64,000 nucleotides of DNA, taken from the NCBI RefSeq assembly GCF_002119765.1, contig NZ_CP021112.1, positions 862,501-926,500 on the forward strand, written 5' to 3'. The notes beneath the pieces are model-generated. The model had not been told where the DNA came from. It did no database searches and saw only the letters and a program-made list of their open reading frames with translations. Origin of the DNA: Pseudorhodoplanes sinuspersici. Its GTDB lineage: Bacteria; Pseudomonadota; Alphaproteobacteria; Rhizobiales; Xanthobacteraceae. The position numbers were made by a program, and so were the translations under genes. Positions 8,684-49,563 of the stretch are shown here, one piece after another. Numbering within the stretch: position 1 is the stretch's first letter; each line of letters opens with the position of its first letter.

Positions 8684-9586
8684 ATGTCCGATCCCATGCT
8701 TCCCACTGAGCGCGCCGACTTTTCAGCAATCGTCGATCGCCCGCCGCTGAAATTGCCCGGCGGCGCGCGCATCGTCGTCTGGACCATCGTCAATTTCGAG
8801 GTGTGGGATATCGCCCGGCCGATGGCGCGGCAGGTGCTGCCGGCACCGACCGGTCAGCCACTGCTCCCCGATGTACCGAACTGGAGCTGGCACGAATACG
8901 GCATGCGCGTCGGCGCCTGGCGTTTCTTCGATCTCTACAAGCGCCACAACATCCGCCCCACCCTCTCGATCAACGCGCGCGTCTGCGAGGATTATCCGCG
9001 CGTCGCCCAAGAGGCCAAGGATCTCGGCTGGGAATTCATGGGCCACGCCTATGACCAGGGGCCGATCCACAAGGTCGAGGACCAGCGCGGCATGATCTTC
9101 AAATCGATGGACATCATCGAGAAGTTCACCGGCACGCGCCCGGTCGGATGGCTTGGACCGGGCCTGACACAAACCCTCGACACACCGGAAAACCTTGCCG
9201 AAGCCGGCGTGAAATATATCGGCGATTGGGTCTACGATGACGAGCCGACGGTCATCCGCACCAAAAAAGGCCCGCTGGTTACCCTGCCCTACACGGTCGA
9301 ACTGAACGACATCCCGATGATGATCGTGCAGCACCACGAGAGCGATCATCTCTACAAGCGCTTCGTCGAAAGCTTCGATCGCCTTTACGAAGAGAGCGCC
9401 GAGCGGGCGAAGTTCGTGTCGATCGCGATCCATCCCTACATCAGCGGCCAGCCATTCCGCATCAAGGCGCTGGAAGCGATTTACGATTACGTCGCCAAGT
9501 TCGACGGCGTGCTGCACTGGAACGGCGCCGAGATTCTCGACTGGTACACCAAGACAGCCAATGTGAAATTCGGAGCCGCGGCATGA
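8684..9586 (+). CDS. Polysaccharide-deacetylase-fold hydrolase, PuuE-like (copy 1)
   Basis: The 300-residue protein belongs to the NodB-fold carbohydrate esterase 4 superfamily but lacks the classical TFDDG motif. It has instead WTIVNFEVWD, WEFMGHAYDQ and IAIHPYISG, as in the PuuE-type (metal-independent allantoinase) and related cyclic-amide hydrolase branch. It is cytoplasmic, with no signal peptide, which fits small-molecule metabolism rather than cell-wall work. It overlaps the following hydrolase gene by 4 bp (ATGA). A clear paralogue lies at 10292-11170, sharing LPDVPNW/LPDIPNW-type, WHEYG, WEFMGH, GWLGPGLT and IQHH/VQHH motifs. Confidence 0.85.
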   Translation: MSDPMLPTERADFSAIVDRPPLKLPGGARIVVWTIVNFEVWDIARPMARQVLPAPTGQPLLPDVPNWSWHEYGMRVGAWRFFDLYKRHNIRPTLSINARVCEDYPRVAQEAKDLGWEFMGHAYDQGPIHKVEDQRGMIFKSMDIIEKFTGTRPVGWLGPGLTQTLDTPENLAEAGVKYIGDWVYDDEPTVIRTKKGPLVTLPYTVELNDIPMMIVQHHESDHLYKRFVESFDRLYEESAERAKFVSIAIHPYISGQPFRIKALEAIYDYVAKFDGVLHWNGAEILDWYTKTANVKFGAAA

Positions 9587-10287
9587 GCCTCGCGCAGCGT
9601 GTCCTTCCCGCGGTCGATGAGACCACCGTCCCGGTTCTCGGTGGCGGCGTGTTTCCGGTCCGCCGCATCTATTGCGTCGGACGCAACTATGTCGACCACA
9701 TCCGTGAAATGAAGGAAGCCGATGAACGCGATCCACCGTTCTTCTTCCAGAAGCCGCGCGATTCCATCGTTCAGGATGGCGACACCGTTCCCTATCCGCC
9801 GCTGACCTCGGACTTTCAGTTCGAAGGCGAACTCGTGCTCGCCATCGGCAAACCGGGGCGGCAGATCGCCGTCGAAAACGCGCTCGATCATGTCTTCGGC
9901 TATGCCGCCGGCATCGATCTGACGCGACGCGATCGCCAGCGCGATGCACGCGACATGCGGCTGCCATGGGAAATCGGCAAGAGCTTCGATGCATCCGCAC
10001 CCTGCGGCATCGTCACGCCGGTCTCCGCTGGCGGCCATCGCACCAGCGGCGCGATCACGCTTGCGGTGAACGGCGCCGAGCGTCAGCGCGGCGAGCTTGC
10101 GCAGATGATCTGGAATGTGCCGGAAATCATCGCGCAATTGTCGCGTCAAGTGACGCTTGGCATCGGCGATCTGATTTTCACCGGAACGCCCGCCGGTGTC
10201 GGCGCGGTTGTTCCCGGCGACGAGATCGTTGTCACCATCGATGGCCTGAAGCCGCTCACCATCGCCATCGCGGCGCCGGAGAATTGA
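9583..10287 (+). CDS. Fumarylacetoacetate hydrolase-family protein
   Basis: The 234-residue product has the FAH core: IYCVGRNYVDHIREM, FFFQKPRDSIVQDGD, FEGELVLAIG (metal-binding Glu pair) and AAGIDLTRRDRQRDARD, then LIFTGTPAGVG near the end. Single-domain members act as acylpyruvate hydrolases, 2-oxo-hepta-diene-dioate isomerases or decarboxylases, cleaving C-C bonds in ring-fission products. It overlaps the preceding deacetylase by 4 bp and is 4 bp from the second deacetylase, so translational coupling is likely. Its position between the paralogues suggests it acts on a deacylated intermediate, which is inference. Confidence 0.9.
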   Translation: MSLAQRVLPAVDETTVPVLGGGVFPVRRIYCVGRNYVDHIREMKEADERDPPFFFQKPRDSIVQDGDTVPYPPLTSDFQFEGELVLAIGKPGRQIAVENALDHVFGYAAGIDLTRRDRQRDARDMRLPWEIGKSFDASAPCGIVTPVSAGGHRTSGAITLAVNGAERQRGELAQMIWNVPEIIAQLSRQVTLGIGDLIFTGTPAGVGAVVPGDEIVVTIDGLKPLTIAIAAPEN

Positions 10288-21367: not shown

Positions 21368-22603
21368 ATGCTCAAACACGTCCACATCATCGGCGCCGGC
21401 CTTGCCGGCCTTTCCGCTGCGGTTCGGCTGACGCAAGAGGGCATTCCCGTCACCGTGCACGAAGCCACGCGGCAGGCCGGTGGCCGCTGCCGCTCGTATG
21501 ACGACGCGCAGACGGGAATGCATATCGACAACGGCACGCATCTGTTGCTGTCCGGCAATTACTCCGCCGTCGACTATCTGAGGGCGATCGGCGTCACACC
21601 GGATTTCGCGCCGGCCGATTTCCGTTTCGTCGATGGCGCCAATGGCGAAAGCTGGGTGCTGCGCCTTGGCGATGGCAGCCTGCCACTGTGGATCTTCGAC
21701 CGCTCGAGCCGTGTGCCGCAAACCAGCATCACCGATTATCTCAAGCTGGCGCCACTCCTCCTCGGCACGCAGGACAAGCCGCTGAGGGAAGTGATCGATC
21801 GCGACGGCGAATTGTATCGCCGTCTGCTTGATCCTTTAATGATCGCGGCTCTGAATATCGACACGCCGAGCGGCTCGTCGAAACTGGCCGCACAGATAGC
21901 ACGCGAGACGCTTCTTCGCGGCGGCCATGCGTGCCGGCCGCTGGTATTCGAACGCGGCCTCAGCAGCGCCTTCGTCGATCCCGCGCTCACGTTCCTGAAA
22001 GGTCGCGACGTTGATGTGCGCTTCGAGCACGAACTCGAATCTCTGAAAATCTCGGACGGCCGCGTCGAGACTCTCACATTCAAGGACGGCGAAACGGCCC
22101 TTGGCCCGGATGACGCCGTGATCATGGCGGTTCCGGCCTATACCGCAGCCAGCCTCGTGCCGGGCCTGATGGCGCCGGATCAATTCCGCGCCATCATCAA
22201 CATTCATTACGATCTCGCACCACCCGCCGGTTCACCATTCATGACAGGTGTCATTAACCAAACGGTCGAATGGATTTTCGCCTTTAAAAGCCGCATTTCC
22301 ATCACCATTAGTCATGCCGATCGGTTACTTACTCTACCTAGGCTGGAGATCGCAGAGACGGTGTGGCGAGAAGTCACAGCCATTCTCGGCATGGACGCGC
22401 CGCTTCCGAAATGGCAATTGGTACGGGAACGGCGCGCAACTTTTGCCGCAACTCCGGAACAGAATGCACGCCGGCCAGCTCCGCGCACTCAATGGCGCAA
22501 CCTGGTCCTGGCCGGCGACTGGACCGATACCGGCTTGCCCGCCACGATTGAAAGCGCGATCCGATCCGGCGCGCGCGCAGCACAGTTTGTCCGCAACGCA
22601 TGA
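21368..22603 (+). CDS. hpnE: Hydroxysqualene dehydroxylase HpnE
   Basis: The 411-residue flavoprotein begins VHIIGAGLAGLSAAVRL (dinucleotide-binding GxGxxG) and ends NLVLAGDWTDTGLPATIESAIRSG, typical of the amine-oxidase/phytoene-desaturase family. HpnE reduces hydroxysqualene to squalene. Tryptophan-rich TVEWIFAFK lies in the substrate domain. It overlaps shc by 4 bp. Confidence 0.95.
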   Translation: MLKHVHIIGAGLAGLSAAVRLTQEGIPVTVHEATRQAGGRCRSYDDAQTGMHIDNGTHLLLSGNYSAVDYLRAIGVTPDFAPADFRFVDGANGESWVLRLGDGSLPLWIFDRSSRVPQTSITDYLKLAPLLLGTQDKPLREVIDRDGELYRRLLDPLMIAALNIDTPSGSSKLAAQIARETLLRGGHACRPLVFERGLSSAFVDPALTFLKGRDVDVRFEHELESLKISDGRVETLTFKDGETALGPDDAVIMAVPAYTAASLVPGLMAPDQFRAIINIHYDLAPPAGSPFMTGVINQTVEWIFAFKSRISITISHADRLLTLPRLEIAETVWREVTAILGMDAPLPKWQLVRERRATFAATPEQNARRPAPRTQWRNLVLAGDWTDTGLPATIESAIRSGARAAQFVRNA

Positions 22604-24564
22604 ACATAATGACGACCATATCTACCCCTGTGGCCCGCGAGGCGCTGACGCATTCGGTCGGCAAGGCGGCGGACGCATTGCTGAAGCTGCAGCAGCCGGA
22701 CGGTCACTGGGTGTTCGAACTGGAAGCCGACGCCACAATCCCCGCTGAATATGTGCTACTGCGCCATTACCTTGGCGAACCGGTCGATGCCGAGCTTGAG
22801 CGGAAGATCGCCGTCTATCTGCGCCGTATCCAGGGCAAGCATCACGGCTGGCCGCTCTTCCACGGTGGCGAGTTCGACATGAGCGCCAGCGTGAAAGCCT
22901 ATTTCGCGCTGAAGATGATCGGCGATTCCCCGGATGCCGATTACATGCGCCGTGCGCGCGAAGCGATCCTGGCCCGCGGCGGCGCATCGGGCAGCAATGT
23001 GTTCACCCGCGTACTGCTGTCGCTGTTCGGCGTTACCACATGGCGTAGCGTCCCGGTGATGCCGGTGGAGATCATGCTGCTGCCGCGCTGGTTTCCGTTT
23101 CACATGTCGAAGATTTCCTATTGGGCACGCACGGTCATCGCACCGCTTTTGGTGCTCGGCGCGTTAAAGCCGAAGGCGCGCAACCCGAAGGGCGTCACGA
23201 TCAACGAACTGTTTCTGGAGCCGCCGCACTCCCTCGGCGGCGTGAAGAAGGCCGGCCATCAGAAATGGTCGTGGTTCCTGTTTTTTCGCAGCGTCGATAT
23301 CGTTCTGCGCGCGACCGAACCATTCTTCCCGAAAACGACGCGCAAGCGTGCGATCGACGCCGCTGTCGCCTTCGTGAAGGAGCGCCTGAACGGTGAAGAT
23401 GGCCTCGGCGCCATTTATCCGGCGATGGCCAACAGCGTGATGATGTATGACGTGCTGGGCTATCCCGAAGATCATCCGGATCGCGCCATTGCGCGCCTGT
23501 CGATCGACAAGCTGTTGGTCGTCAAAGACGACGAGGCCTATTGCCAGCCTTGCGTCTCGCCGGTGTGGGACACTGCACTGACGGCACACACGATGCTGGA
23601 AGCCGGCGGCGAACAAGCAACCAAGGCGGCACAGGCGGGACTCGATTGGCTGATCCCACGGCAGGTTCTGGACGTCAAAGGCGACTGGGCCGAAGCACGG
23701 CCTGATGTCCGTCCGGGCGGCTGGGCATTCCAGTACAATAACGCGCATTATCCCGATCTCGACGATACGGCCGTCGTCGCGATGGCGATGGATCGCGCGC
23801 AGGCCAACAGCAGCACACACAATTTCGATAAGTCGCTGAGCCGCGCGCGCGAATGGGTGCTCGGGCTACAAAGCAAGAATGGCGGCTGGGCCGCCTTCGA
23901 TGCGGACAATACCTACAGCTTTCTCAACAACATCCCGTTTTCGGATCACGGCGCGCTGCTTGATCCACCGACCGAGGATGTCACCGCGCGCTGCATCTCG
24001 ATGCTGGCGCAGATGCCTGGCGACGTTCAGGGCGACCAAGCGATCGAGGCCGGCATTGAATATTTGCGCAAGACGCAGTTGCCGGATGGCTCGTGGTACG
24101 GGCGCTGGGGCCTGAACTACATCTACGGCACATGGTCTTCGCTCTGCGCGCTGAACGCCGCCGGCCTCGATCACAAATCGGATGTGGTACGCAAGGCCGC
24201 CGACTGGCTGCTCAAAATCCAGAACGCGGATGGCGGCTGGGGCGAGGACGGCACCAGCTACAAGCTCGAATACAAGGGTTATGAACCCGCACCGAGCACG
24301 CCGTCACAAACCGCATGGGCCCTGCTCGGCCTGATGGCCGCCGGCGAAGTGGATCATCCTAAAGTTCAACAAGGTATCCGTTATCTGATGGAGCAGCAGG
24401 GCAAAGACGGCCTCTGGGACGAAGAGCGCTTCACCGCGACGGGCTTCCCGCGGGTATTCTATTTGCGCTATCACGGATACCGGAAATTCTTCCCGCTCTG
24501 GGCGCTGGCGCGTTATCGCAACCTGACCTCGGCAAACGACCGCCGCGTCGCTTTTGGTATGTAA
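22600..24564 (+). CDS. shc: Squalene-hopene cyclase
   Basis: The 654-residue cyclase has the catalytic DxDD as DLDD (about residues 386-389, in HYPDLDDTAV). Several QW repeats are visible (LQSKNGGWAAFDADN, KTQLPDGSWYGRWG, IQNADGGWGED, QQGKDGLWDE). It folds squalene into hopene and diplopterol at the inner membrane. Length is as expected. The gene overlaps hpnE by 4 bp and hpnG follows after 18 bp. Confidence 0.97.
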   Translation: MNIMTTISTPVAREALTHSVGKAADALLKLQQPDGHWVFELEADATIPAEYVLLRHYLGEPVDAELERKIAVYLRRIQGKHHGWPLFHGGEFDMSASVKAYFALKMIGDSPDADYMRRAREAILARGGASGSNVFTRVLLSLFGVTTWRSVPVMPVEIMLLPRWFPFHMSKISYWARTVIAPLLVLGALKPKARNPKGVTINELFLEPPHSLGGVKKAGHQKWSWFLFFRSVDIVLRATEPFFPKTTRKRAIDAAVAFVKERLNGEDGLGAIYPAMANSVMMYDVLGYPEDHPDRAIARLSIDKLLVVKDDEAYCQPCVSPVWDTALTAHTMLEAGGEQATKAAQAGLDWLIPRQVLDVKGDWAEARPDVRPGGWAFQYNNAHYPDLDDTAVVAMAMDRAQANSSTHNFDKSLSRAREWVLGLQSKNGGWAAFDADNTYSFLNNIPFSDHGALLDPPTEDVTARCISMLAQMPGDVQGDQAIEAGIEYLRKTQLPDGSWYGRWGLNYIYGTWSSLCALNAAGLDHKSDVVRKAADWLLKIQNADGGWGEDGTSYKLEYKGYEPAPSTPSQTAWALLGLMAAGEVDHPKVQQGIRYLMEQQGKDGLWDEERFTATGFPRVFYLRYHGYRKFFPLWALARYRNLTSANDRRVAFGM

Positions 24565-26398: not shown

Positions 26399-27331
26399 TT
26401 ACACCGACGCCAGTTCAGCGGGGAGGCGGAATTCGATATTTTCTTCGCGACCGGGCAGCGTGGACACTTCAACCGGCTTCAGCTTCTTTAGAGCAGTTAT
26501 AACGTCATCGACCAATACTTCGGGTGCAGATGCACCAGCCGTAATGCCAACGGTTTTGACTCCATCCAGCCAGGCCGGATCGAGTTCGGAGCCATTGGCG
26601 ATCAGATAGCTCGGAATGCCGAGTTCGGCTCCGATCTCACGCAGCCGATTGGAATTGGACGAGTTCGTTGCTCCGACAACCAAAAGTAGATCGGCGACCT
26701 CGCATAGATCGCGCACGGCGCTCTGGCGGTTCTGCGTTGCGTAGCAAATGTCGCGCGTATCCGGCCCCTGGATATCGGTGAAGCGGCGAGTCAGCGCGGC
26801 AATGATTTCCTTGGTATCGTCGACGCTGAGCGTGGTCTGCGTGACGTAGGCAACCGGCGTATCAGTCGGGATCGTCAGCGTTTCGACGTCGGCGACGGTC
26901 TGAACCAGCACCACCGGTGCCGGGATCTGACCCATCGTGCCTTCGACTTCCGGATGGCCTGCATGGCCGATCAGGATCACGGTACGGCCCTGCTTGACGT
27001 AACGCTTGCCCTGATTGTGAACCTTGGTGACGAGCGGACAGGTCGCATCGATCACCGGCAGGTTGCGCACTTCCGCTTCGCCTTCCACGGCTTTCGACAC
27101 GCCATGCGCCGAGAAGATCGCGACCGCATCGTCCGGGATCTCGGACACGCTCTCGACGAAGCGCGCACCCTTCGCCTTCAGCGTCTCGACCACGTATTTA
27201 TTGTGAACGATCTCGTGACGCACATAGACGGGCGGCCCATATTTCTTGAGCGCCCGTTCGACGATGTCGATCGCTCTCACGACACCCGCGCAGAAGCCGC
27301 GCGGCTGCGCAAGAACGACCTTCAAAGTCAT
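26399..27331 (-). CDS. ispH: 4-hydroxy-3-methylbut-2-enyl diphosphate reductase IspH
   Basis: The 310-residue protein holds the three cluster cysteines ([26 protein letters not shown]), HEIVHN and the SSNSNRL motif. It makes IPP and DMAPP in the last step of the MEP pathway. The ATG at 27331 gives [17 protein letters not shown], the standard start; an ATG at 27349 is possible. It lies between hpnH and dxs on the same strand with 27-34 bp gaps. Confidence 0.96.
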
Positions 27332-27358
27332 GATCTGAGTTCCGTGCATGACAGTCGT

Positions 27359-29275
27359 TTACGCGAGCTGCATGGTTTCGATTTTACGGTCCTTGCCGAG
27401 CGCCTCGAAGGCCTTGGCAATAATACCGTTCGCATCGAGGCCAGCACGGGCATACATCGCCGCCGGACTATCGTGATCGATGAACACATCCGGTAGAACC
27501 ATCGAGCGGACTTTCAGGCCAGTGTCGAGCACGCCATGCTCGGCCAGAGCCTGCATCACAAATGATCCGAAGCCGCCGATCGACCCCTCTTCGATGGTGA
27601 TCAGGACTTCGTGGTTCTTGGCCAGGCGCAGCAGGAGATCGACGTCCAGCGGCTTAGCGAAACGGGCGTCCGCCACTGTGGTCGTTAAACCATGCGCGGC
27701 GAGCGATTCCGCCGCCTTCATGCATTCGGCGAGACGGGTGCCATAGGAGAAAAGCGCAACTGTGTTGCCTTCGCGCAGGACGCGACCTTTGCCAATTTCC
27801 AGCGGCTTGCCGATCTCCGGCATGTCGACGCCCACACCATCACCACGCGGGTAACGCAACGCCGATGGGCGATCGTCAATCACGGCCGCGGTCGCCACCA
27901 TATGCACCAGGTCAGCCTCGTCGGCTGCCGCCATCAGCACGAAGTCCGGCAGACAGCCAAGATAGGCAACATCGAACGAGCCGGCATGGGTCGGACCATC
28001 GGCGCCGACAAGACCTGCGCGGTCCAGAGCGAATCGCACCGGCAGTTTCTGGATCGCGACGTCGTGTACGATCTGGTCGTAGGCGCGTTGCAGGAAGGTC
28101 GAATAGATCGCGACGAACGGCTTGTAACCACTCGTTGCAAGCCCTGCAGCGAAGGTCACCGCGTGCTGTTCGGCGATGCCGACATCAAACGTACGTTTCG
28201 GAAACGCCTTCGAGAAGATGTCAACACCGGTACCGGACGGCATGGCTGCGGTGATCGCAACGATACGATCGTCCTTTTGCGCTTCCTTGACGAGGCTCTC
28301 GCCGAACACCTTGGTGTAGGACGGCGCATTCGCTTTCGCCTTGGACTGACGGCCCGTGACCACATCGAACTTGACGACACCATGATATTTGTCGTCTGAC
28401 GCCTCCGCCGGAGCATAACCCTTGCCCTTTTGCGTCACGACATGAACGAGGATCGGCCCCATGTCGGCGTCCCGCACATTGCGCAGCACGGGCAGGAGAT
28501 GATCGAGATTATGGCCGTCGATCGGGCCGACATAGTAGAAACCGAGTTCTTCAAACAGCGTGCCGCCGGTCACCATGCCGCGTGCATACTCTTCCGCGCG
28601 TGCGGCCTGGGTCTTCACAAACTTCGGCAGATGACTTCCGATTTGTTTACCGATTTCGCGCAACGACAGATAAGTGCGGCCGGAAATCAGGCGTGCCAGA
28701 TAAGCCGACATCGCGCCAACGGGGGGCGCAATGGACATCTCGTTGTCGTTCAGGATCACGATCAGACGCGAGTCCATCGCGCCCGCATTGTTCATGGCCT
28801 CGTAAGCCATGCCAGCCGACATCGCACCATCACCGATGATGGCAACGACATTGTTCTTGGTACCGGACAGATCGCGGGCCACAGCCATGCCAAGGCCCGC
28901 CGAAATCGATGTCGACGAATGCGCTGCCCCGAACGGATCGTATTCGCTTTCGGTGCGCTTGGTGAAACCGGACAAACCGCCCCCCTGTCGCAGCGTGCGA
29001 ATGCGATCGCGCCGGCCGGTCAAAATTTTATGCGGATAGGCCTGATGCCCGACGTCCCAGATCAACCGGTCTTCCGGGGTGTTGAATACAGCGTGCAAAG
29101 CCACGGTGAGCTCGACAACGCCAAGGCCGGCGCCGAGATGTCCCCCGGTGACAGCCACCGCGCTGATCGTTTCATTCCGCAACTCGTCGGCGACCTGTCG
29201 CAATTGACTGTCGCGAAGCTTACGGAGGTCAGCGGGTGTCTGGAGGGTGTCCAGGAGGGGGGTAGAAACAGTCAT
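27359..29275 (-). CDS. dxs: 1-deoxy-D-xylulose-5-phosphate synthase
   Basis: The 638-residue thiamine-diphosphate enzyme has [70 protein letters not shown] and [15 protein letters not shown]. It condenses pyruvate and glyceraldehyde 3-phosphate to DXP, the first MEP step. The ATG at 29275 is chosen with AAAGGTG upstream. It is divergent from hpnN, with 152 bp of shared control region. Its place in the hopanoid cluster suggests that precursor supply is matched to hopanoid demand. Confidence 0.97.
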
Positions 29276-29427
29276 TATCGAAACACCTTTGCTCCGGACG
29301 TTGTTAAACTTATGGCGCAATTACAGGATTTTGGTTCCTTGGAACGCAAAAAACATGCCCCGGCAAGCCCAATTAAGCCAGCCAAGGCGTCGCTTTCGAA
29401 GAATGAAGGTTACGGAAACGGAAATTC

Positions 29428-41550: not shown

Positions 41551-42309
41551 TCAGGTCAGTGCTCTTCCCATTGTCTGTGACATAGCACGCAAGGCTTCTC
41601 TGAATTCCGCGTCACGATCAGGCGTAAATCGCGCGGTCGGCACAGCCACGTTGAGTGCGCCGATGAAGCTGCCTCCCTCCCGAACCGCGATGGCGATCGC
41701 CGTAATGCCTGGAGTGAACTCATCGTGCGAATAAGCGAAGCCCGTCGCCTTGATCGTTTGGATTTCCTGTCTCAGTTGCGCCTTAGATCGTATCGTGTGG
41801 GGCGTTACCGAGGTGAGCACGGTTCGGGCCAGATATTGCTTCAACGCCTCAGGCTCGAGCTCGGCAAGAACGATCTTGCCGGCCGAAACAGCATAAAGCG
41901 GCGCGCGGGCACCGACTTTCATTGTGTAGGACAGCGCCTGCGTGCTGATCGCAGATCCGATCACCTCCACCGCATCATCCACACGGATATAGAAGCCGCA
42001 TGTTTCATGGACCTCGCCGCTGAGTTCACGAAGGAATGGCAGGACGTCGTCACTGAGCGATGGCTGAGGCGCGGCTTTTGCGAGCCCGACGATTTTCGGT
42101 CCGAGGCCGTAACCCTCGGTCGCGGAATCGCGTGCGATGAATCCTCGCGCCTGCAAGTTGTTCAGGAGATGAAACAGACTGCTACGCGGGATGCCGAGAT
42201 CTGCGAGAAGCCGCGAGAACGACGGCGGCCGTTTTGCAGTGGCGATAAATTCAAGAATGTCGAGGCCACGGTCCAAGGACTTGACAGCTGCGCTCTCGTT
42301 TCGTTTCAT
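41551..42309 (-). CDS. IclR-family transcriptional regulator of the hydroxyquinol genes
   Basis: The 252-residue protein has the IclR winged helix (SFSRLLADLGIPRSSLFHLLNNLQARGFIARD, in two parts) and effector domain (KVGARAPLYAVSAGKIVLAEL; ATGFAYSHDEFTPGITAIAIAV). It is divergent from the flavoprotein hydroxylase gene, and a perfect 8-2-8 palindrome starts 11 bp upstream of its start codon. It most likely responds to an aromatic acid or pathway intermediate. The hydrolase remnant lies downstream on the same strand. Confidence 0.92.
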   Translation of the reverse strand: MKRNESAAVKSLDRGLDILEFIATAKRPPSFSRLLADLGIPRSSLFHLLNNLQARGFIARDSATEGYGLGPKIVGLAKAAPQPSLSDDVLPFLRELSGEVHETCGFYIRVDDAVEVIGSAISTQALSYTMKVGARAPLYAVSAGKIVLAELEPEALKQYLARTVLTSVTPHTIRSKAQLRQEIQTIKATGFAYSHDEFTPGITAIAIAVREGGSFIGALNVAVPTARFTPDRDAEFREALRAMSQTMGRALT

Positions 42310-42337: not shown

Positions 42338-42416
42338 TATGTTTCTGACATGCCCACGCTGGCTTGGCAAGAGGCGAACAAAGGAATCCTGCGCCCTGAG
42401 AGACCAAGGAATGCCC

Positions 42417-44093
42417 ATGCCTCCGGCTGACTGTTCAGTGCTGATCGTCGGTGGCGGTCCCTGCGGACTGATGCTGGCGAACGAATTCGGACGCCGCGGC
42501 GTTACCGCTGTGCTCGTGGATCAGAAGGCGACCACGGCTTTCAATCCGCAGGCCAACGCGACTCAAGCTCGCACCATGGAGCATTTCCGGCGCTTGGGGT
42601 TCGCGCAGGAGATCAGAGCGCTCGGGCTTCCATCCGATTTTCCAACCGACATTGCCTATTTCACGCGTTATACAAAACACGAACTCGCACGCTTCAAGCT
42701 GCCGTCAGCGCGCGAAGCGGTCGAGCGCATCAAGCAGCTCTCCGGCTCATGGAGCGCCGCCGAGCTCCCGCATCGCGTCTCGCAGAAATTCGTCGAACAG
42801 GTGCTCAGACGGCATGCCGAAGCCCTTCCCGGAATTTCGGTTCATTACGGCTTTCGGCTGACCCGCTTCAGTGAGACGGCCCAGGGTATCGAAGCCGAGA
42901 TCGAGCGTGTGAGCGATGGCGCAACGCATCGCATTCGCTCTACCTATCTTGTTGGTGCCGACGGCCCGCGCAGTACCGTGCGCCAGGCCCTCGGTTTCGG
43001 GTATACCGGCGAGGACGGCGCCGTGCGCGATTTTTTCGGCGGGCGCATGTTCGCGATCTATCTCCGCGCACCGGATTTCTATCGTGTGGTGCCGCACCCG
43101 CCTGCCTGGATGAATGTCACCTTCAATCGCGAACGCCGCGCCTTCATGGCGGCGGTCGATGGCAAAGGCGAGTTTGCCTTCCACACGCAATTGCGCGCTC
43201 ATGAAGCCGAGAGCGAGATCACGCCAGATCGCGCGCTGGCGATGTTTCAGGAGGCCGTTGGCGCGCCGATCAATGCTGAAATCCTGTCCTACGGCACATG
43301 GATCGCAGGCTATGCGCTGGTCGCCGAAAAATTCCAGCGCGGTCGTGTCTTCATCGCCGGCGATGCTGCGCATCTGTTCACGCCTGCCGGTGGACTTGGT
43401 TACAACACCGCGATCGAAGACGCAGTGAATCTCGGCTGGAAACTTGCGGCGGCGATCCGCGGGAAAGCCGGCCCTGATCTGCTCGCCAGCTACGAAGCCG
43501 AGCGCCAACCGAACGCCAGACGCAACACTGGCTATGCAAGACAATTCGCCGACTCGTTGGGCCTGTTCGTGCCGGTGCCCGAGATCGAAGACGATACCCC
43601 TCAAGGCGCAGACGCACGCCGTGTTGCCGGCGACTATCTCGAGGCCCACGGCAGAGCCGAGTTTAACATCCCGGGAATTACCTTCGGCGCGCGTTACTAT
43701 ACCTCGCCCATCGTTGCCGCGGACGGAACAGAACCGCCGCCCGATGCGGCCAATCTCTATATCCCCTCGGCTTGCCCCGGCGGCCGTGCACCACATCTAT
43801 GGCTCTCGGCAGAGCAATCCCTTTACGACCTTTTCGGGTTTGAATGGACGTTGCTGCGACTCTCTCGCGGAGCCGATGGGCAACGGATTATCACAGCTGC
43901 CACCGACGCCGGACTTGACCTGACGGTCGTTGACCTCCCGCTGGACGAAGCGCGCGATCTCTATCAAGCCGATCTCGTCCTGATCAGGCCGGACCAGATC
44001 GTGGCATGGCGCGGCAATAGCGACGAAACCGCGCCGGAGATTGTCCGGCGTGTTCTCGGCTTCGAGACATCCGCGGCCCCCGCAACAGTTTGA
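42417..44093 (+). CDS. FAD-dependent aromatic hydroxylase (phenol hydroxylase/MhpA type)
   Basis: The 558-residue class A flavoprotein monooxygenase has CSVLIVGGGPCGLMLANEF (FAD ADP-binding), the DG motif VGADGPRSTVRQALG and the GD motif FIAGDAAHLFTPAGGLGYN. A C-terminal thioredoxin-like domain (LTVVDLPLDEARDLYQADL) is typical of the larger phenol-hydroxylase/MhpA subgroup. The start at 42417 has AAGGA six bases upstream. Followed by an intradiol dioxygenase and maleylacetate reductase, it probably makes hydroxyquinol or its substituted form from a resorcinol- or hydroquinone-type compound. Confidence 0.88.
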   Translation: MPPADCSVLIVGGGPCGLMLANEFGRRGVTAVLVDQKATTAFNPQANATQARTMEHFRRLGFAQEIRALGLPSDFPTDIAYFTRYTKHELARFKLPSAREAVERIKQLSGSWSAAELPHRVSQKFVEQVLRRHAEALPGISVHYGFRLTRFSETAQGIEAEIERVSDGATHRIRSTYLVGADGPRSTVRQALGFGYTGEDGAVRDFFGGRMFAIYLRAPDFYRVVPHPPAWMNVTFNRERRAFMAAVDGKGEFAFHTQLRAHEAESEITPDRALAMFQEAVGAPINAEILSYGTWIAGYALVAEKFQRGRVFIAGDAAHLFTPAGGLGYNTAIEDAVNLGWKLAAAIRGKAGPDLLASYEAERQPNARRNTGYARQFADSLGLFVPVPEIEDDTPQGADARRVAGDYLEAHGRAEFNIPGITFGARYYTSPIVAADGTEPPPDAANLYIPSACPGGRAPHLWLSAEQSLYDLFGFEWTLLRLSRGADGQRIITAATDAGLDLTVVDLPLDEARDLYQADLVLIRPDQIVAWRGNSDETAPEIVRRVLGFETSAAPATV

Positions 44094-44171: not shown

Positions 44172-45032
44172 ATGAGGAACTTCAACGAACTCACCATCAC
44201 CGACGCGGTTGTCGATCGCATCAAGAATACGCCGGATGACCGACTGAAGCAGATCAGCACGTCGCTCATCCGGCATCTGCATAATTTCGTACGCGATGTG
44301 CGGCTGACCGAAGCCGAGTGGGCTTATGCCATCGACTTCCTGGCACGCACCGGCAAGATCTGCGATGGCAATCGTCAGGAATTCATCCTGCTGTCCGATA
44401 CGCTCGGGGTGTCGATGCTGGTCGACGCGATCAATCACGCGTCGCCCGGGACCACGGAAAGCACCGTACTCGGCCCCTTCTATGTTCAAAACCCGCCGGA
44501 ATATCCGCTGGGAGCCGACATTCGCGGCGCGCTGAAAGGCGATCCTCTTTACGCTCACGGCCGCATAACCTCCTCAGACGGCAGGCCACTCACGAATGCC
44601 ATCGTCGATGTCTGGCATTCCGACAAGGATGGCTACTACGACGTGCAGCATCTCGATGAGACCGGCGGGCTCGCCGGCCGAGCGCGTTTTCGCACCGACA
44701 AGGACGGCCTATATCGTTTCTGGTCGATCAAGCCGGCAGCCTATCCCATCCCTTATGACGGCCCCGTCGGCGATATGCTCCAGGCACAGGCGCGGCACCC
44801 TTGGCGTCCCGCTCACGTGCACTTTATGATCGAAGCGCCCGATCACGAAAAACTCACAACCCATGTTTTCGTTGATGGCGATCAGTATCTCGATTCCGAC
44901 GCTGTGTTCGGCGTCAAAGATTCGCTGGTTGCAAATTTCGTCCGGCACGATGGCGGCATAGCACCGGACGGGCAGAAGCTGGATGATCCTTTCTTCACCC
45001 TGGAATATGACTTTAGGCTAAAGAAGAGATAA
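44172..45032 (+). CDS. Intradiol ring-cleavage dioxygenase, hydroxyquinol 1,2-dioxygenase type
   Basis: The 286-residue protein has an N-terminal helical dimerisation domain (TSLIRHLHNFVRDVRLTEAEW) and the dioxygenase core. The Fe(III) ligands are visible: Tyr in DGYYDVQ, Tyr in YPIPYDGPVG, and two His in HPWRPAHVHF. Catechol and hydroxyquinol dioxygenases share this layout. The adjacent maleylacetate reductase favours hydroxyquinol, whose cleavage gives maleylacetate. The gene lies 78 bp after the hydroxylase. Confidence 0.9.
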   Translation: MRNFNELTITDAVVDRIKNTPDDRLKQISTSLIRHLHNFVRDVRLTEAEWAYAIDFLARTGKICDGNRQEFILLSDTLGVSMLVDAINHASPGTTESTVLGPFYVQNPPEYPLGADIRGALKGDPLYAHGRITSSDGRPLTNAIVDVWHSDKDGYYDVQHLDETGGLAGRARFRTDKDGLYRFWSIKPAAYPIPYDGPVGDMLQAQARHPWRPAHVHFMIEAPDHEKLTTHVFVDGDQYLDSDAVFGVKDSLVANFVRHDGGIAPDGQKLDDPFFTLEYDFRLKKR

Positions 45033-45086: not shown

Positions 45087-46151
45087 ATGCAGTCATTCGT
45101 CTACAATGCCCTGCCCGGGCGGGTCATCTTCGGTACCGGCACCATCTCGACGCTGAAAGCCGAAATAGAGCGCGCCGGTTGCAAGCGCGCGCTGCTGCTG
45201 AGCACGCCTGAGCAGGCGCCGGCACTGAAAGACATCGCCGCGTCCATCGGACCATTGGCGGCTGGCATTTTCAGCCAAGCCGCCATGCACACGCCCACCG
45301 ATGTCACCGAACGCGCGCTACAAGCGGCGAAGGATTGTGGCGCGGATTGCACCGTCGCCTTCGGCGGGGGCTCGTCGACCGGTCTCGGCAAGGCCATTGC
45401 GCTTCGCACCGACCTGCCCCAGATCGCAATCCCGACCACCTATGCCGGTTCGGAAATGACGCCGATCATCGGCGAGACCGAGGGCGGCAAAAAGATCACC
45501 CAACGCACGCTGAAGGTGCTGCCGGAGATCGTTATCTATGATGTCGATTTCACCCTCACCCTGCCGCCGCGGCTGACGGTGACATCGGGCACCAACGCGA
45601 TTGCGCACGCGGTGGAAGCACTCTATGCGCAGGATCGCAATCCGGTCATCTCGATGATGGCGGAGCAAGCGATCGCCGCGATGGGGCGCGCGCTACCTGC
45701 GATCGTCACCAACCCGCAGGATCGCGAGGCGCGGGCGGAAGCGCTCTATGGTGCGTGGCTGTGCGGCGTCTGTCTTGGATCTGTCGGCATGGCTTTGCAT
45801 CACAAGCTTTGCCACGTGGTCGGCGGCTCTTTCAATCTGCCGCATGCAGACACCCACACAGTCATTCTACCCTATGCCATGGCCTACAACGCAAAGGCCG
45901 CACCGGAAGCCGACCAGGCAGTCGCCCGTGCGCTCGGCGGCCGCAACGGCACGCAAGCCCTGGTCGACCTGGCAAAGAAGCTCGACAGCCCGAACAGCCT
46001 GAAATCCATTGGCATGGCGGAAAGCGACATCGACCGCGCGGCCGATCTCGCCGTGCAGAACCCATACTGGAACCCGCGCCCTATCGAACGAGGTCCTATT
46101 CGCGATCTCATCGCCAATGCCTGGGCGGGCAACATTAAAAATTACGCGTAA
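45087..46151 (+). CDS. Maleylacetate reductase
   Basis: The 354-residue iron-containing-alcohol-dehydrogenase-fold protein starts FVYNALPGRVIFGTGTI, a stretch shared by maleylacetate reductases. It then has FGGGSSTGLGKAIAL, IPTTYAGSEMTPIIGET, and the metal-site His residues in LHHKLCHVVGGSFNLPHADTH. It reduces maleylacetate to 3-oxoadipate using NAD(P)H, completing the hydroxyquinol route toward the TCA cycle. 54 bp separate it from the dioxygenase. Confidence 0.94.
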   Translation: MQSFVYNALPGRVIFGTGTISTLKAEIERAGCKRALLLSTPEQAPALKDIAASIGPLAAGIFSQAAMHTPTDVTERALQAAKDCGADCTVAFGGGSSTGLGKAIALRTDLPQIAIPTTYAGSEMTPIIGETEGGKKITQRTLKVLPEIVIYDVDFTLTLPPRLTVTSGTNAIAHAVEALYAQDRNPVISMMAEQAIAAMGRALPAIVTNPQDREARAEALYGAWLCGVCLGSVGMALHHKLCHVVGGSFNLPHADTHTVILPYAMAYNAKAAPEADQAVARALGGRNGTQALVDLAKKLDSPNSLKSIGMAESDIDRAADLAVQNPYWNPRPIERGPIRDLIANAWAGNIKNYA

Positions 46152-46353
46152 AAGCTAAGAAGTTTCAGCCAAAACGACAATATTATGTGTCCCGAGCACA
46201 TTGATCTGCCGGCGAAGCCGCCGCGCAATTTTGACCGGCCACATATACCGCCGCTTTTTAAAAAGCCACGCTTGCAATACTTGATTATTGCTGCGATTGC
46301 GGGCGGCTGAGTGATTATTTGTCCTCAAGCAACAGCCGTAGGAGCATCCGTAT

Positions 46354-47508
46354 TTGAACACTTCACTCGCGGCTGGCGTAGTGCAGGGCGCGTCCGGACA
46401 GCATGTCGTTGGCCGCTTCACTGCAGTCTATCATGTGAACGAAACCGCCGGCCGTATTGCGGCACGGGCGGAGGCCATTGCCGTCGAGCAAAGCGTGGAA
46501 ATGCCCCTCACGGCAATTTCCGACCGAGCTGTACTGGACAATATCGTAGGCCGCGTGGAGGCCATTAAAGCGGTTGACGAGGGCTTGTTCGAAGTCAGCG
46601 TTGGACTTTCCGTCGCCACCTCCGGGATGGAAGCAGGCCAGCTTTTTAACATGCTGTTCGGCAATACGTCGTTGCATCCCGAGGTGATGCTCAAGGATGC
46701 CGTATTCCCCGACGAGTTATTGGCTGCTTTTGGCGGCCCACGTCATGGAATTTCCGGATTGCGTCAGCGTGTCGGTGCCGGCATCCGCGCGTTGACCTGC
46801 TCGGCACTCAAACCTCAGGGCTCAAGCGCACGCGAGCTTGCGGAGCTGGCCAGACAACTGGCGCGCGGTGGCCTTGATTTCATCAAAGACGATCATGGTC
46901 TGGCCGACCAAGTCTACAGCCCCTTTGCCGAACGCGTGCCGCGGATCGCTGAAGCGGTGCGCGAAGCGCGCGCAAACGATGGCGGGCGCACATGCTACCT
47001 GCCGTCACTGTCGGGCAATCTCGATCAGCTCCGCCGCCAGGTCGAACTCGCCCGCGCTGAAGGGATCGATGCGGTCCTGATCGCACCCATGGTCACAGGA
47101 GTTTCCGCCTTCCATACGATCGTGCGCGAAAATCCCGATTTCGCTTTCATGACGCATCCTTCCATGGCGGGTGCGGCGCGCATTGCCCCGCCGCTACTGC
47201 TGGGCAAACTGTTCCGTCTTCTAGGCGCCGATGCGACGGTGTTTCCCAATTACGGCGGTCGATTCGGCTATTCGCAGGATGAGTGCCGGGAGCTGGCAAA
47301 GGCAGCATTGGCGCGCTGGAGCAAGTTTCCTGCTACCGTACCGGTTCCGGCAGGCGGCATGACGCTCGACCGTGTCGCCGAAATGCTGGAATTCTACGGT
47401 CTTGATGTGATCGTGCTGGTCGGCGGCGGACTTCTGTCAGCAGGCACGCGCATCACACAAGAAACTGCCGCCTTCGTCGATGCGGTCGTGCGGCACCAAA
47501 CTGCGTAA
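46354..47508 (+). CDS. RuBisCO-like protein (form IV)
   Basis: The 384-residue protein is a RuBisCO large-subunit homologue with a small N-terminal domain and a C-terminal barrel. The active-site strands read CSALKPQGSSA (aligned to Lys175) and GGLDFIKDDHG (aligned to GGxDFxKDDE), with Lys178 but His181 in place of the metal-binding Glu. The usual loop-6 Lys region is not recognisable, so it cannot be a CO2-fixing RuBisCO. It should act as an isomerase, tautomerase or decarboxylase on a phosphorylated or acid sugar. The start is TTG at 46354 with AGGAG nine bases upstream. A cupin gene follows after 5 bp, and the hydroxyquinol genes precede it by 202 bp. Confidence 0.9.
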   Translation: MNTSLAAGVVQGASGQHVVGRFTAVYHVNETAGRIAARAEAIAVEQSVEMPLTAISDRAVLDNIVGRVEAIKAVDEGLFEVSVGLSVATSGMEAGQLFNMLFGNTSLHPEVMLKDAVFPDELLAAFGGPRHGISGLRQRVGAGIRALTCSALKPQGSSARELAELARQLARGGLDFIKDDHGLADQVYSPFAERVPRIAEAVREARANDGGRTCYLPSLSGNLDQLRRQVELARAEGIDAVLIAPMVTGVSAFHTIVRENPDFAFMTHPSMAGAARIAPPLLLGKLFRLLGADATVFPNYGGRFGYSQDECRELAKAALARWSKFPATVPVPAGGMTLDRVAEMLEFYGLDVIVLVGGGLLSAGTRITQETAAFVDAVVRHQTA

Positions 47509-47513
47509 CAACG

Positions 47514-47984
47514 ATGGACAAACCTGAAACCAAACACGCGGATTTGTTCCGCACCTTTCTCTCGAAGTATCGATGGGAAAACGTGCCGTTTCTTCCCTAC
47601 AAGGAGGAAGGCACTGCGCCGTTCAAATCCATCACCCGCCAAGTTCTGTTCGATGTGCCGGAACTGCGTTGCGAATTGCGCTACTTTGAGGTCGCGCCGG
47701 GCGGCTATTCCACTCTGGAGCGCCACGAGCATGTTCACGGGGTGATGATACTGCGCGGTGAGGCGGACGTGCTGGTGGGCGGCGAGATCAAAGCAGTCAA
47801 AGCCTTCGATCTGGTTCACATTCCGCCGATGACCTGGCATCAATTTCGCACCAAGGGCGATGAGCCGATGGGCTTTCTCTGCATGGTGAATGTCGAACGC
47901 GATCGGCCGCAACTGCCGAGCGAAGAGGATTTGCGTCGGCTCAGGCAAGATCCGAAATTGGCAGCTTTCCTGTCACCGAACTGA
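47514..47984 (+). CDS. Small cupin-domain protein paired with the RuBisCO-like protein
   Basis: The 156-residue single-domain cupin has metal-ligand motif 1 in TLERHEHVHGVMILRGEADV and motif 2 in FDLVHIPPMTWHQFRT. It starts 5 bp after the RuBisCO-like gene, so the two are almost certainly co-translated. In Rhodospirillum rubrum a RuBisCO-like protein and a cupin act in sequence in the MTA-isoprenoid shunt, the cupin releasing methanethiol to give DXP. Whether this cupin does the same is inference. A bidirectional hairpin (48009-48036) ends the transcript. Confidence 0.85.
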   Translation: MDKPETKHADLFRTFLSKYRWENVPFLPYKEEGTAPFKSITRQVLFDVPELRCELRYFEVAPGGYSTLERHEHVHGVMILRGEADVLVGGEIKAVKAFDLVHIPPMTWHQFRTKGDEPMGFLCMVNVERDRPQLPSEEDLRRLRQDPKLAAFLSPN

Positions 47985-48008
47985 CTGCTTTTATTCGATA
48001 AGGGCCAG

Positions 48009-48036
48009 CGCGCCCAGAAAGTGCTGGGCGCGTTGT
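48009..48036. terminator. Bidirectional terminator between cupin and dadA genes
   Basis: CGCGCCCAG, loop AAAGTG, CTGGGCGCG, followed by TTGTCTT. It lies between two convergent genes. Confidence 0.65.
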
Positions 48037-48059: not shown

Positions 48060-49322
48060 CTATGCGGCGCGACGGACCGGCACGTGCGATGCGGCATCGG
48101 GCGCGAGATCACTGCTGACGGACTGGGCGACCATCTGTGCCGTCGCCGCCGATAACGTCCAGCCGAGATGACCGTGACCGGTGTTGTAATAGACGCCCGG
48201 ACGGCGGCCGCGACCGACCCTCGGCAGCATGTTCGGCATCATCGGCCGCAGCCCGCTCCACGGCACCACGCGATCTGTTGCCACTCCGGGAAACAACTCG
48301 CGCGTCCATGTTATCAGCGGCCGCACGCGGTCGTCGCGGATATCGCGATTATAGCCGTTGAATTCCGCCGTCCCGGCAACGCGGAAACGATCGCGACCAA
48401 GCCGGCTCGCTACGATCTTGGTTGCATCATCAAGAATACTCACCGTCGGCGCGGCATTCTGGCTCGCCTCGTCAAGCATGTTGATCGTGATCGAGTAGCC
48501 CTTCACCGGATAGATGTTGAGACGATCGCCAAGCATCGCCGCGAAATTGCGGCTGGCGACGCCCGCGCAGACCACGACGGCATCGGCATGCAGCGCCTGC
48601 ATTCCGCTATCCGGCGACCGCCAGTGCAGCACATGCCCGTGACTTTCCGGGATGATTGCTTCAACACTGGCATCGTAATGCACCACCACGCCACGGTGCA
48701 CACACGCCGCTGCCAGTCCGCGCGTGAATTTATGGATGTCGCCGGTGGCATCCGAAGGCGTGAAGAAGCCTCCATAATAGGCACCGCTCAGCGTCGGCTC
48801 GATCTGCGCGATGTCGTCTGGCGTCACCACAAACCGATCGAGACCGCCCTCCTTCAGAAGCGCATTGACCTTGGCTGCCTTCTCGAAGCCCGCGCGGTCC
48901 CGATAGATGTGCAGGATGCCGCGCTTCTCGAGATCGAAGTCGATATGCTCCTTCTCCGCCATCGCGAACAGGTGCTCGCGCGCGGCGATCGCGAGCCTCA
49001 CCGTCTCGATCGTGTTGCGGCGATAATGCATGATGTGTCCGGCGAATTGGGCCATCCACGAATATTTGTGCCAACTCGGACGCGGGTTCATCAAAAGCGG
49101 TGCGTCGGCCTGCAGCATCCAGCGCAGCCCGTGCAGGATGGTGGACGGCTTGTTCCAGACCTCGGCATTGCTGGCCGAAAGCTGGCCGCCATTGGCGAAA
49201 GAGGTTTCCATGCCGGCGTAGCGATGCCGGTCGAACACCGTGACGCGATAGCCGCGTTCGAGCAGCGCGTAAGCCGTGGTCACGCCGGTAATGCCGGCGC
49301 CGATAACAGCAATGTGAGTCAT
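48060..49322 (-). CDS. D-amino-acid dehydrogenase/glycine oxidase-like FAD oxidoreductase (DadA type)
   Basis: The 420-residue DAO-family flavoprotein begins HIAVIGAGITGVTTAYALLERGY, then FANGGQLSASNAEVWN and RPMMPNMLPRVGRGRRPGVYYNTGHGHLGWTLSAAT in two motifs, all DadA-like. It oxidises D-amino acids or glycine-type amines to the 2-oxo acid and ammonia, feeding electrons to quinone at the membrane. The start at 49322 has GGGAGA nine bases upstream. Longer in-frame extensions are translated riboswitch and are rejected. A tandem glycine riboswitch precedes it, suggesting that glycine or a glycine-derived compound is the physiological cue. Confidence 0.9.
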   Translation of the reverse strand: MTHIAVIGAGITGVTTAYALLERGYRVTVFDRHRYAGMETSFANGGQLSASNAEVWNKPSTILHGLRWMLQADAPLLMNPRPSWHKYSWMAQFAGHIMHYRRNTIETVRLAIAAREHLFAMAEKEHIDFDLEKRGILHIYRDRAGFEKAAKVNALLKEGGLDRFVVTPDDIAQIEPTLSGAYYGGFFTPSDATGDIHKFTRGLAAACVHRGVVVHYDASVEAIIPESHGHVLHWRSPDSGMQALHADAVVVCAGVASRNFAAMLGDRLNIYPVKGYSITINMLDEASQNAAPTVSILDDATKIVASRLGRDRFRVAGTAEFNGYNRDIRDDRVRPLITWTRELFPGVATDRVVPWSGLRPMMPNMLPRVGRGRRPGVYYNTGHGHLGWTLSAATAQMVAQSVSSDLAPDAASHVPVRRAA

Positions 49323-49384
49323 AAAATCAGGTCTCCCGAAGACAGACTGCGATCTTCCGGCGCTTCCCGCCGGCGCGACGCCCC

Positions 49385-49563
49385 ATCTGTCCCGGTTGCC
49401 TGAGAGCTTGGTCCAACCCGATGCGGGCCGACATCCCCTTCGGCGGATGCCGCAAGCGGCATCTCTCTCCAGATTGCCTGACGATACGGTTCTTTTGCCT
49501 GAGAGTTTCCGGGGCGGTTGCTCCGTCGGCGTCGGGCACAAAGCCCGAGCTCTCCTGCATCGT
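49385..49563 (-). ncRNA. Tandem glycine riboswitch upstream of the dadA-type gene
   Basis: On the minus strand the first aptamer has GCAGGAGAGC, the core CGCCGACGGAGCAACC and GGAAACTCTCAGGCA. A short linker with AAAGAACC follows, then a second aptamer with CTGGAGAGAG, CGCCGAAGGGG and AAGCTCTCAGGCAACCGGGACAGATGG. These are the conserved cores of the gcvT (glycine) motif in tandem. The end lies about 60 bp before the dadA start. Tandem glycine riboswitches mostly switch genes on when glycine is abundant. Both cores look intact. Confidence 0.92.

Follow-up and report, generated by a model that had tools for sequence, protein, structure and literature searches.

Organization of the locus

The window analysed here is a stretch of 64,000 nucleotides from Pseudorhodoplanes sinuspersici, whose genome is a single contig of 5.97 Mb. 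Two adjacent genes on the plus strand are the subject of this analysis: the first encodes a RuBisCO-like protein (RLP; 46354..47508, 384 aa, TTG start), predicted to be a 5-methylthioribulose-1-phosphate 1,3-isomerase of the DeepYkr type, and the second a cupin (47514..47984, 156 aa, ATG start), predicted from homology and from its invariant histidines to be a 1-methylthioxylulose-5-phosphate methylsulfurylase. A preliminary description of this DNA had recognized both genes, with 5 bp between them and the motif KDDH in the RLP, and these observations hold: the RLP stop codon ends at 47508, the cupin ATG begins at 47514, and KDDH occupies RLP residues 178-181. The RLP scores 84.7 bits against Pfam RuBisCO_large (cut-off 30.1) and the cupin 56.5 bits against Cupin_2 (cut-off 27.2). 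By reading, an AGGAG resembling a ribosome-binding site is found on the plus strand (46340..46344), nine bases 5' of the TTG start.

On the 3' side of the cupin, a folding calculation gives a GC-rich plus-strand hairpin of 12 pairs with a 6-base loop (48006..48035), followed by UCUUCCCC. The stretch of 81 nt that contains it has a folding energy of -37.3 kcal/mol (z -4.44); the hairpin is absent from the list of the consensus terminator scan. Beyond it lies, on the minus strand and convergent, the gene of an FAD-dependent oxidoreductase (48060-49541) that scores over the cut-off of the D-amino acid dehydrogenase model NF009074, and the hairpin is likely to be the end of transcription between the convergent genes.

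Upstream, on the same strand, are the genes of a predicted FAD-dependent aromatic-ring hydroxylase (FAD monooxygenase; 42339..44093), a hydroxyquinol-type intradiol dioxygenase (44172..45032) and a maleylacetate reductase (45087..46151), which are context and stand outside the pathway proposed below. They diverge from the gene of an IclR-family regulator (41551..42309, minus strand) that is PcaR/PcaU-like, with a score below the cut-off of that model. The functions first given to the three enzymes agree with the best PDB matches of the dioxygenase (6-chlorohydroxyquinol and hydroxyquinol 1,2-dioxygenases) and of the reductase (a maleylacetate reductase); the best match of the hydroxylase is RebC. 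A gap of 202 bp separates the maleylacetate reductase stop codon from the RLP start, and on its plus strand a simple scan, whose counts are near those of shuffled sequences, gives no terminator-like or promoter-like site. There is no clear break in base composition at the RLP-cupin pair. The shared strand, the short gap and the scan of it would all suit a reading in which the pair is part of the aromatic operon and transforms a hydroxyquinol breakdown product in a new reaction. A new reaction linked to aromatic breakdown had been suggested, and this alternative is weighed below with the related loci.

Relatives, clade and active site of the RuBisCO-like protein

The best PDB match of the RLP is 3qfw, with 420 bits against 131 for the next one. 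The identity with 3qfw, which we take to be RLP1 of Rhodopseudomonas palustris, is 56.4% over 358 aa; with the next-best match, the MtnW-type 2oek, it is 35.9% over 270 aa. A literature search by the code 3QFW returned, among the titles listed, only unrelated ones. The window RLP is the sole protein of the genome matched by PF00016 (in two stretches).

Phylogenetic placement of the RLP had been proposed as a check, and it was done with a maximum-likelihood tree computed quickly from 105 rows, with a long-branch warning for 2oek, L025 and L032: the window RLP, 3qfw and the RLPs of 89 distinct loci form one clade of 91 rows (SH-aLRT 99), presumably that of the shunt RLPs of the DeepYkr type. Fourteen of the 16 active-site columns checked, KDDH included, are identical in 91/91 rows of this clade, and so is the lysine equivalent to residue 175. 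Among the 14 rows outside it (RuBisCOs and other RLPs), Glu replaces the His of KDDH in 12; the other two are sister RLPs, one with KDDH (L023) and one with KEDH (L024). KDDH thus marks a group of RLPs, since all rows of the clade have it and most of the others have Glu, and the motif does not point to a new reaction. An identity as a CO2-fixing RuBisCO was rejected because the equivalents of Glu204, Arg295, Lys334 and Ser379 are His, Pro, Arg and Ala in the window RLP; this comparison presumes the usual numbering of RuBisCO residues and the alignment positions assigned to columns 334 and 379.

The RLP could also be read as MtnW, which serves as an enolase in dioxygen-dependent methionine salvage and with which the RLP shares the RuBisCO family and a connection to methionine salvage; in fact, the best NCBIfam match of the RLP is an MtnW model. 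That match reaches 170.4 bits against a cut-off of 409, however, and TIGR03332 gives 122.3 against 513.6 bits. Moreover, the MtnW-type 2oek has KDDE where the window RLP has KDDH, and the genome has no match to acireductone dioxygenase (PF03079) or MTR kinase (TIGR01767), in searches whose controls detect the Bacillus subtilis copy of the former and the Escherichia coli and B. subtilis copies of the latter. With scores below the curated cut-offs and KDDH in place of KDDE, the MtnW identity was rejected, and we consider it exceedingly improbable. Based on its homology and clade, we infer that the RLP is the 5-methylthioribulose-1-phosphate 1,3-isomerase of the MTA-isoprenoid shunt.

The cupin and the published shunt pairs

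The best PDB match of the cupin is 3jzv, named Rru_A2000, with 62.7% identity over 142 aa; identity with 3kgz, presumably the R. palustris cupin RPA2170, is 57.5%, and 3jzv and 3kgz are 56.0% identical to each other. Residues His71, His73, His75 and His109 are invariant in 77/77 aligned rows and would bind the metal.

In Rhodospirillum rubrum, Rru_A2000 is the 1-methylthioxylulose-5-phosphate methylsulfurylase and Rru_A1998 the matching DeepYkr-class RLP isomerase, according to PMC4958253; in R. palustris the same functions belong to RPA2170 and RPA2169, and between the two species the RLPs are 53% and the cupins 56% identical, according to PMC5893883. The window pair is therefore about as close to the published enzymes (56-63%) as these are to each other, and its cupin resembles Rru_A2000 more (62.7%) than the R. 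palustris cupin does (56%, as published). The identity calculated between 3jzv and 3kgz agrees with the published value, which fits the assignment of 3kgz to RPA2170.

The likeness to R. rubrum comprises the same two enzyme families and a genome that also has mtnP, mtnA and an O-acetylhomoserine sulfhydrylase, whereas the window pair differs in adjoining hydroxyquinol genes; this comparison is made through the cupin sequence. With R. palustris (via 3qfw and 3kgz) the RLP shares its clade and KDDH, but the window genome, with its one PF00016 protein, does not have a second, Photo-type RLP. The cupin is accordingly a predicted methylsulfurylase, which would release methanethiol and 1-deoxyxylulose-5-phosphate (DXP) from 1-methylthioxylulose-5-phosphate.

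Conservation of the pair in related loci

The association of the two genes was followed in 80 named loci retrieved with the RLP sequence (the top 80 of 179) and in 16 loci of relatives with a close RLP. A cupin lies 3' of the RLP and on the same strand in 77/80 of the former, and 3' of it in 16/16 of the latter; after removal of 7 duplicates between the two sets, it follows the RLP in 86/89 distinct loci. The 77 include cupins cut by a contig end (L089, L110), a match in two pieces (L067) and cupins at some distance (0.4 kb in L104 and 1.4 kb in L090). As for the loci with no cupin, in L061 and L111 the DNA ends 54 and 281 bp past the match, and L118 (8001-10219) has a clade RLP with no cupin within 8 kb downstream. 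In L118 an ORF on the opposite strand (9203-10219) resembles, by eye, a cysteine synthase. The RLP of one relative (G059) has an in-frame TGA. Clustering of neighbouring ORFs was set aside, since antisense ORFs confound it in DNA this rich in GC.

In a collection of plasmids the RLP sequence matched 84 records, each below 60% identity, and four loci were examined. One of them, on a plasmid of Terrarubrum flagellatum (L147, 8001-10548), carries in a row an RLP, a cupin and cysE, encoding a serine O-acetyltransferase, a neighbour from sulfur metabolism.

Within the genus, a close RLP is present in 3/8 genomes, the window's included, and in the tree the window RLP groups weakly with alphaproteobacterial bins and not with its genus mates. 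This patchy distribution and grouping fit horizontal transfer or loss.

The constancy of the partner also bears on a third reading of the RLP, as an OiaX-like enzyme acting on apionate-type acid sugars. RLPs with apionate-type activity exist, as a review (PMC6302742) states, and the window RLP does match the corresponding model NF042437, but with 59.7 bits against a cut-off of 700, and the partner in 86/89 neighbourhoods is a cupin of the methylsulfurylase type. The OiaX identity was rejected as far below the cut-off, and its probability is practically negligible.

Related loci do not share the aromatic genes. A dioxygenase or FAD hydroxylase (E <= 1e-8) occurs in 0/89 distinct neighbourhoods, which span 3-17 kb each with many short contigs, and the single reductase match is a 24%-identical Fe-ADH in L121. 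Furthermore, the active-site columns of the window RLP are the same as those of its clade.

Co-occurrence of the pair with salvage and aromatic genes

The same question was addressed at the level of whole genomes, as the preliminary description had proposed, in a set composed of the window's genome and 100 relatives, with thresholds of E <= 8e-121 for a close RLP and E <= 2.5e-51 for a close cupin. A close RLP is present in 17/101 genomes and a close cupin in the same 17. Scores over the cut-off were obtained for mtnA in 17/17 RLP-positive genomes against 48/84 of the others (Fisher one-sided p 0.0002, relatedness ignored) and for mtnP in 16/17 against 53/84 (p 0.008, same test and again ignoring relatedness); in the seventeenth RLP-positive genome (G037) mtnP is in two pieces. 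Both genes are common also in genomes that do not have the pair and are thus not specific to it.

Dioxygenase homologues of any degree are no commoner in RLP-positive genomes (13/17 against 64/84), and 4/17 of these have none. Those with at least 50% identity lean the other way, with 6/17 against 13/84 (one-sided p 0.064, relatedness ignored), a result mildly against the reading preferred here and in favour of a link to the aromatic genes. Overall, the dioxygenase is not clearly associated with the RLP. One relative (G035) carries a dioxygenase homologue on the contig of its RLP, some 22 kb away from it. Given the neighbourhoods, the genome counts and the active site, we regard a new reaction of the pair within the aromatic operon as highly improbable, and its position beside the hydroxyquinol genes looks incidental, with or without read-through across the gap.

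A probable MTA-isoprenoid shunt

The RLP-cupin pair is very probably the distinctive middle part of the MTA-isoprenoid shunt, with enzyme activities assigned by homology. The formation of DXP from methylthioribulose phosphate had been one of the functions first considered for it, and it is favoured by homology, by the clade, by the occurrence of RLP and cupin in the same 17 genomes, and by the presence of mtnP and mtnA in this one. Neither of these genes, nor a kinase, is near the pair, as had been noticed; mtnP (chromosome 115580-116293) and mtnA (1284363-1285358), both over curated cut-offs, occupy with the pair three separate places in the chromosome. The missing match to MTR kinase extends to the whole genome, where this enzyme is unneeded since mtnP is present.

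In the proposed route, MtnP would convert methylthioadenosine to methylthioribose-1-phosphate and MtnA would convert the latter to 5-methylthioribulose-1-phosphate. The RLP would then shift the carbonyl, giving 1-methylthioxylulose-5-phosphate, which the cupin would split into methanethiol and DXP. Methanethiol could be returned to methionine by O-acetylhomoserine sulfhydrylase, a candidate for which is encoded at 4642054-4643304 (TIGR01326, 623.6 bits, cut-off 495.1). The shunt may be redundant here: a class II aldolase is matched in two stretches of the genome, one of which was scored and falls below all NCBIfam cut-offs. The shunt accounts for the sequence evidence with the exception of the neighbourhood, which does not recur in the related loci.

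The window itself contains dxs (27359-29320, minus strand), ispH (26399-27349, minus strand) and a squalene-hopene cyclase gene (22600-24564, plus strand), each over a cut-off and about 17-24 kb from the pair. For the suggestion that DXP from the pair feeds this hopanoid cluster nothing speaks apart from distance; the genome has its own dxs, and the link was rejected. With dxs present, the shunt is not the sole source of DXP. PMC10663253 lists the RLP and cupin among what may stand in for Dxs in the small number of genomes without it, a role inapplicable to a genome with dxs.

A further substrate may be considered on grounds of chemistry. MtnP and MtnA acting on 5'-deoxyadenosine, a by-product of radical-SAM enzymes, would yield 5-deoxyribulose-1-phosphate, and it is conceivable, though we think it unlikely, that the RLP takes this compound as well. 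Its 1,3-isomerisation would lead straight to DXP, bypassing the cupin, and both SAM by-products would then feed isoprenoid synthesis via one enzyme. Such an action of an RLP is not described in the titles, abstract beginnings and passages of the literature matches listed.

A sister clade with a different genetic context

The sister RLPs, one of which (L023) is 35.5% identical to the window RLP, have other neighbours: in 5/5 such loci examined they adjoin mtnK, mtnA and the two parts of a split transketolase. Two of these loci come from relatives (L055, L056) and three, drawn from the 84 plasmid records, from plasmids of Ensifer sp. PDNC004 (L148), Agrobacterium sp. MA01 (L149) and Pararhizobium qamdonense (L150); a sugar ABC transporter is annotated in all three plasmid loci. 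A shunt-type cupin was not found in the two loci of relatives, and the incomplete gene table of the three plasmid stretches lists none. It is a reasonable guess that the sister RLP makes 1-methylthioxylulose-5-phosphate and that the transketolase cleaves it, and these clusters possibly serve the catabolism of methylthioribose by RLP and transketolase. No title or abstract beginning among the literature matches listed describes this route, and the passages seen of a paper about an RLP from Rhizobium strains (PMC8914248) do not mention mtnK, mtnA or transketolase. The sister clade may represent a different salvage route and is more novel than the pair in the window.

Significance of the locus

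For the RLP of P. sinuspersici, neither KDDH nor the aromatic neighbourhood should be taken to indicate a new reaction. The pair is instead a well-supported further case, predicted from sequence, of the characterised shunt through which sulfur salvage is connected with isoprenoid precursors and with the release of methanethiol.
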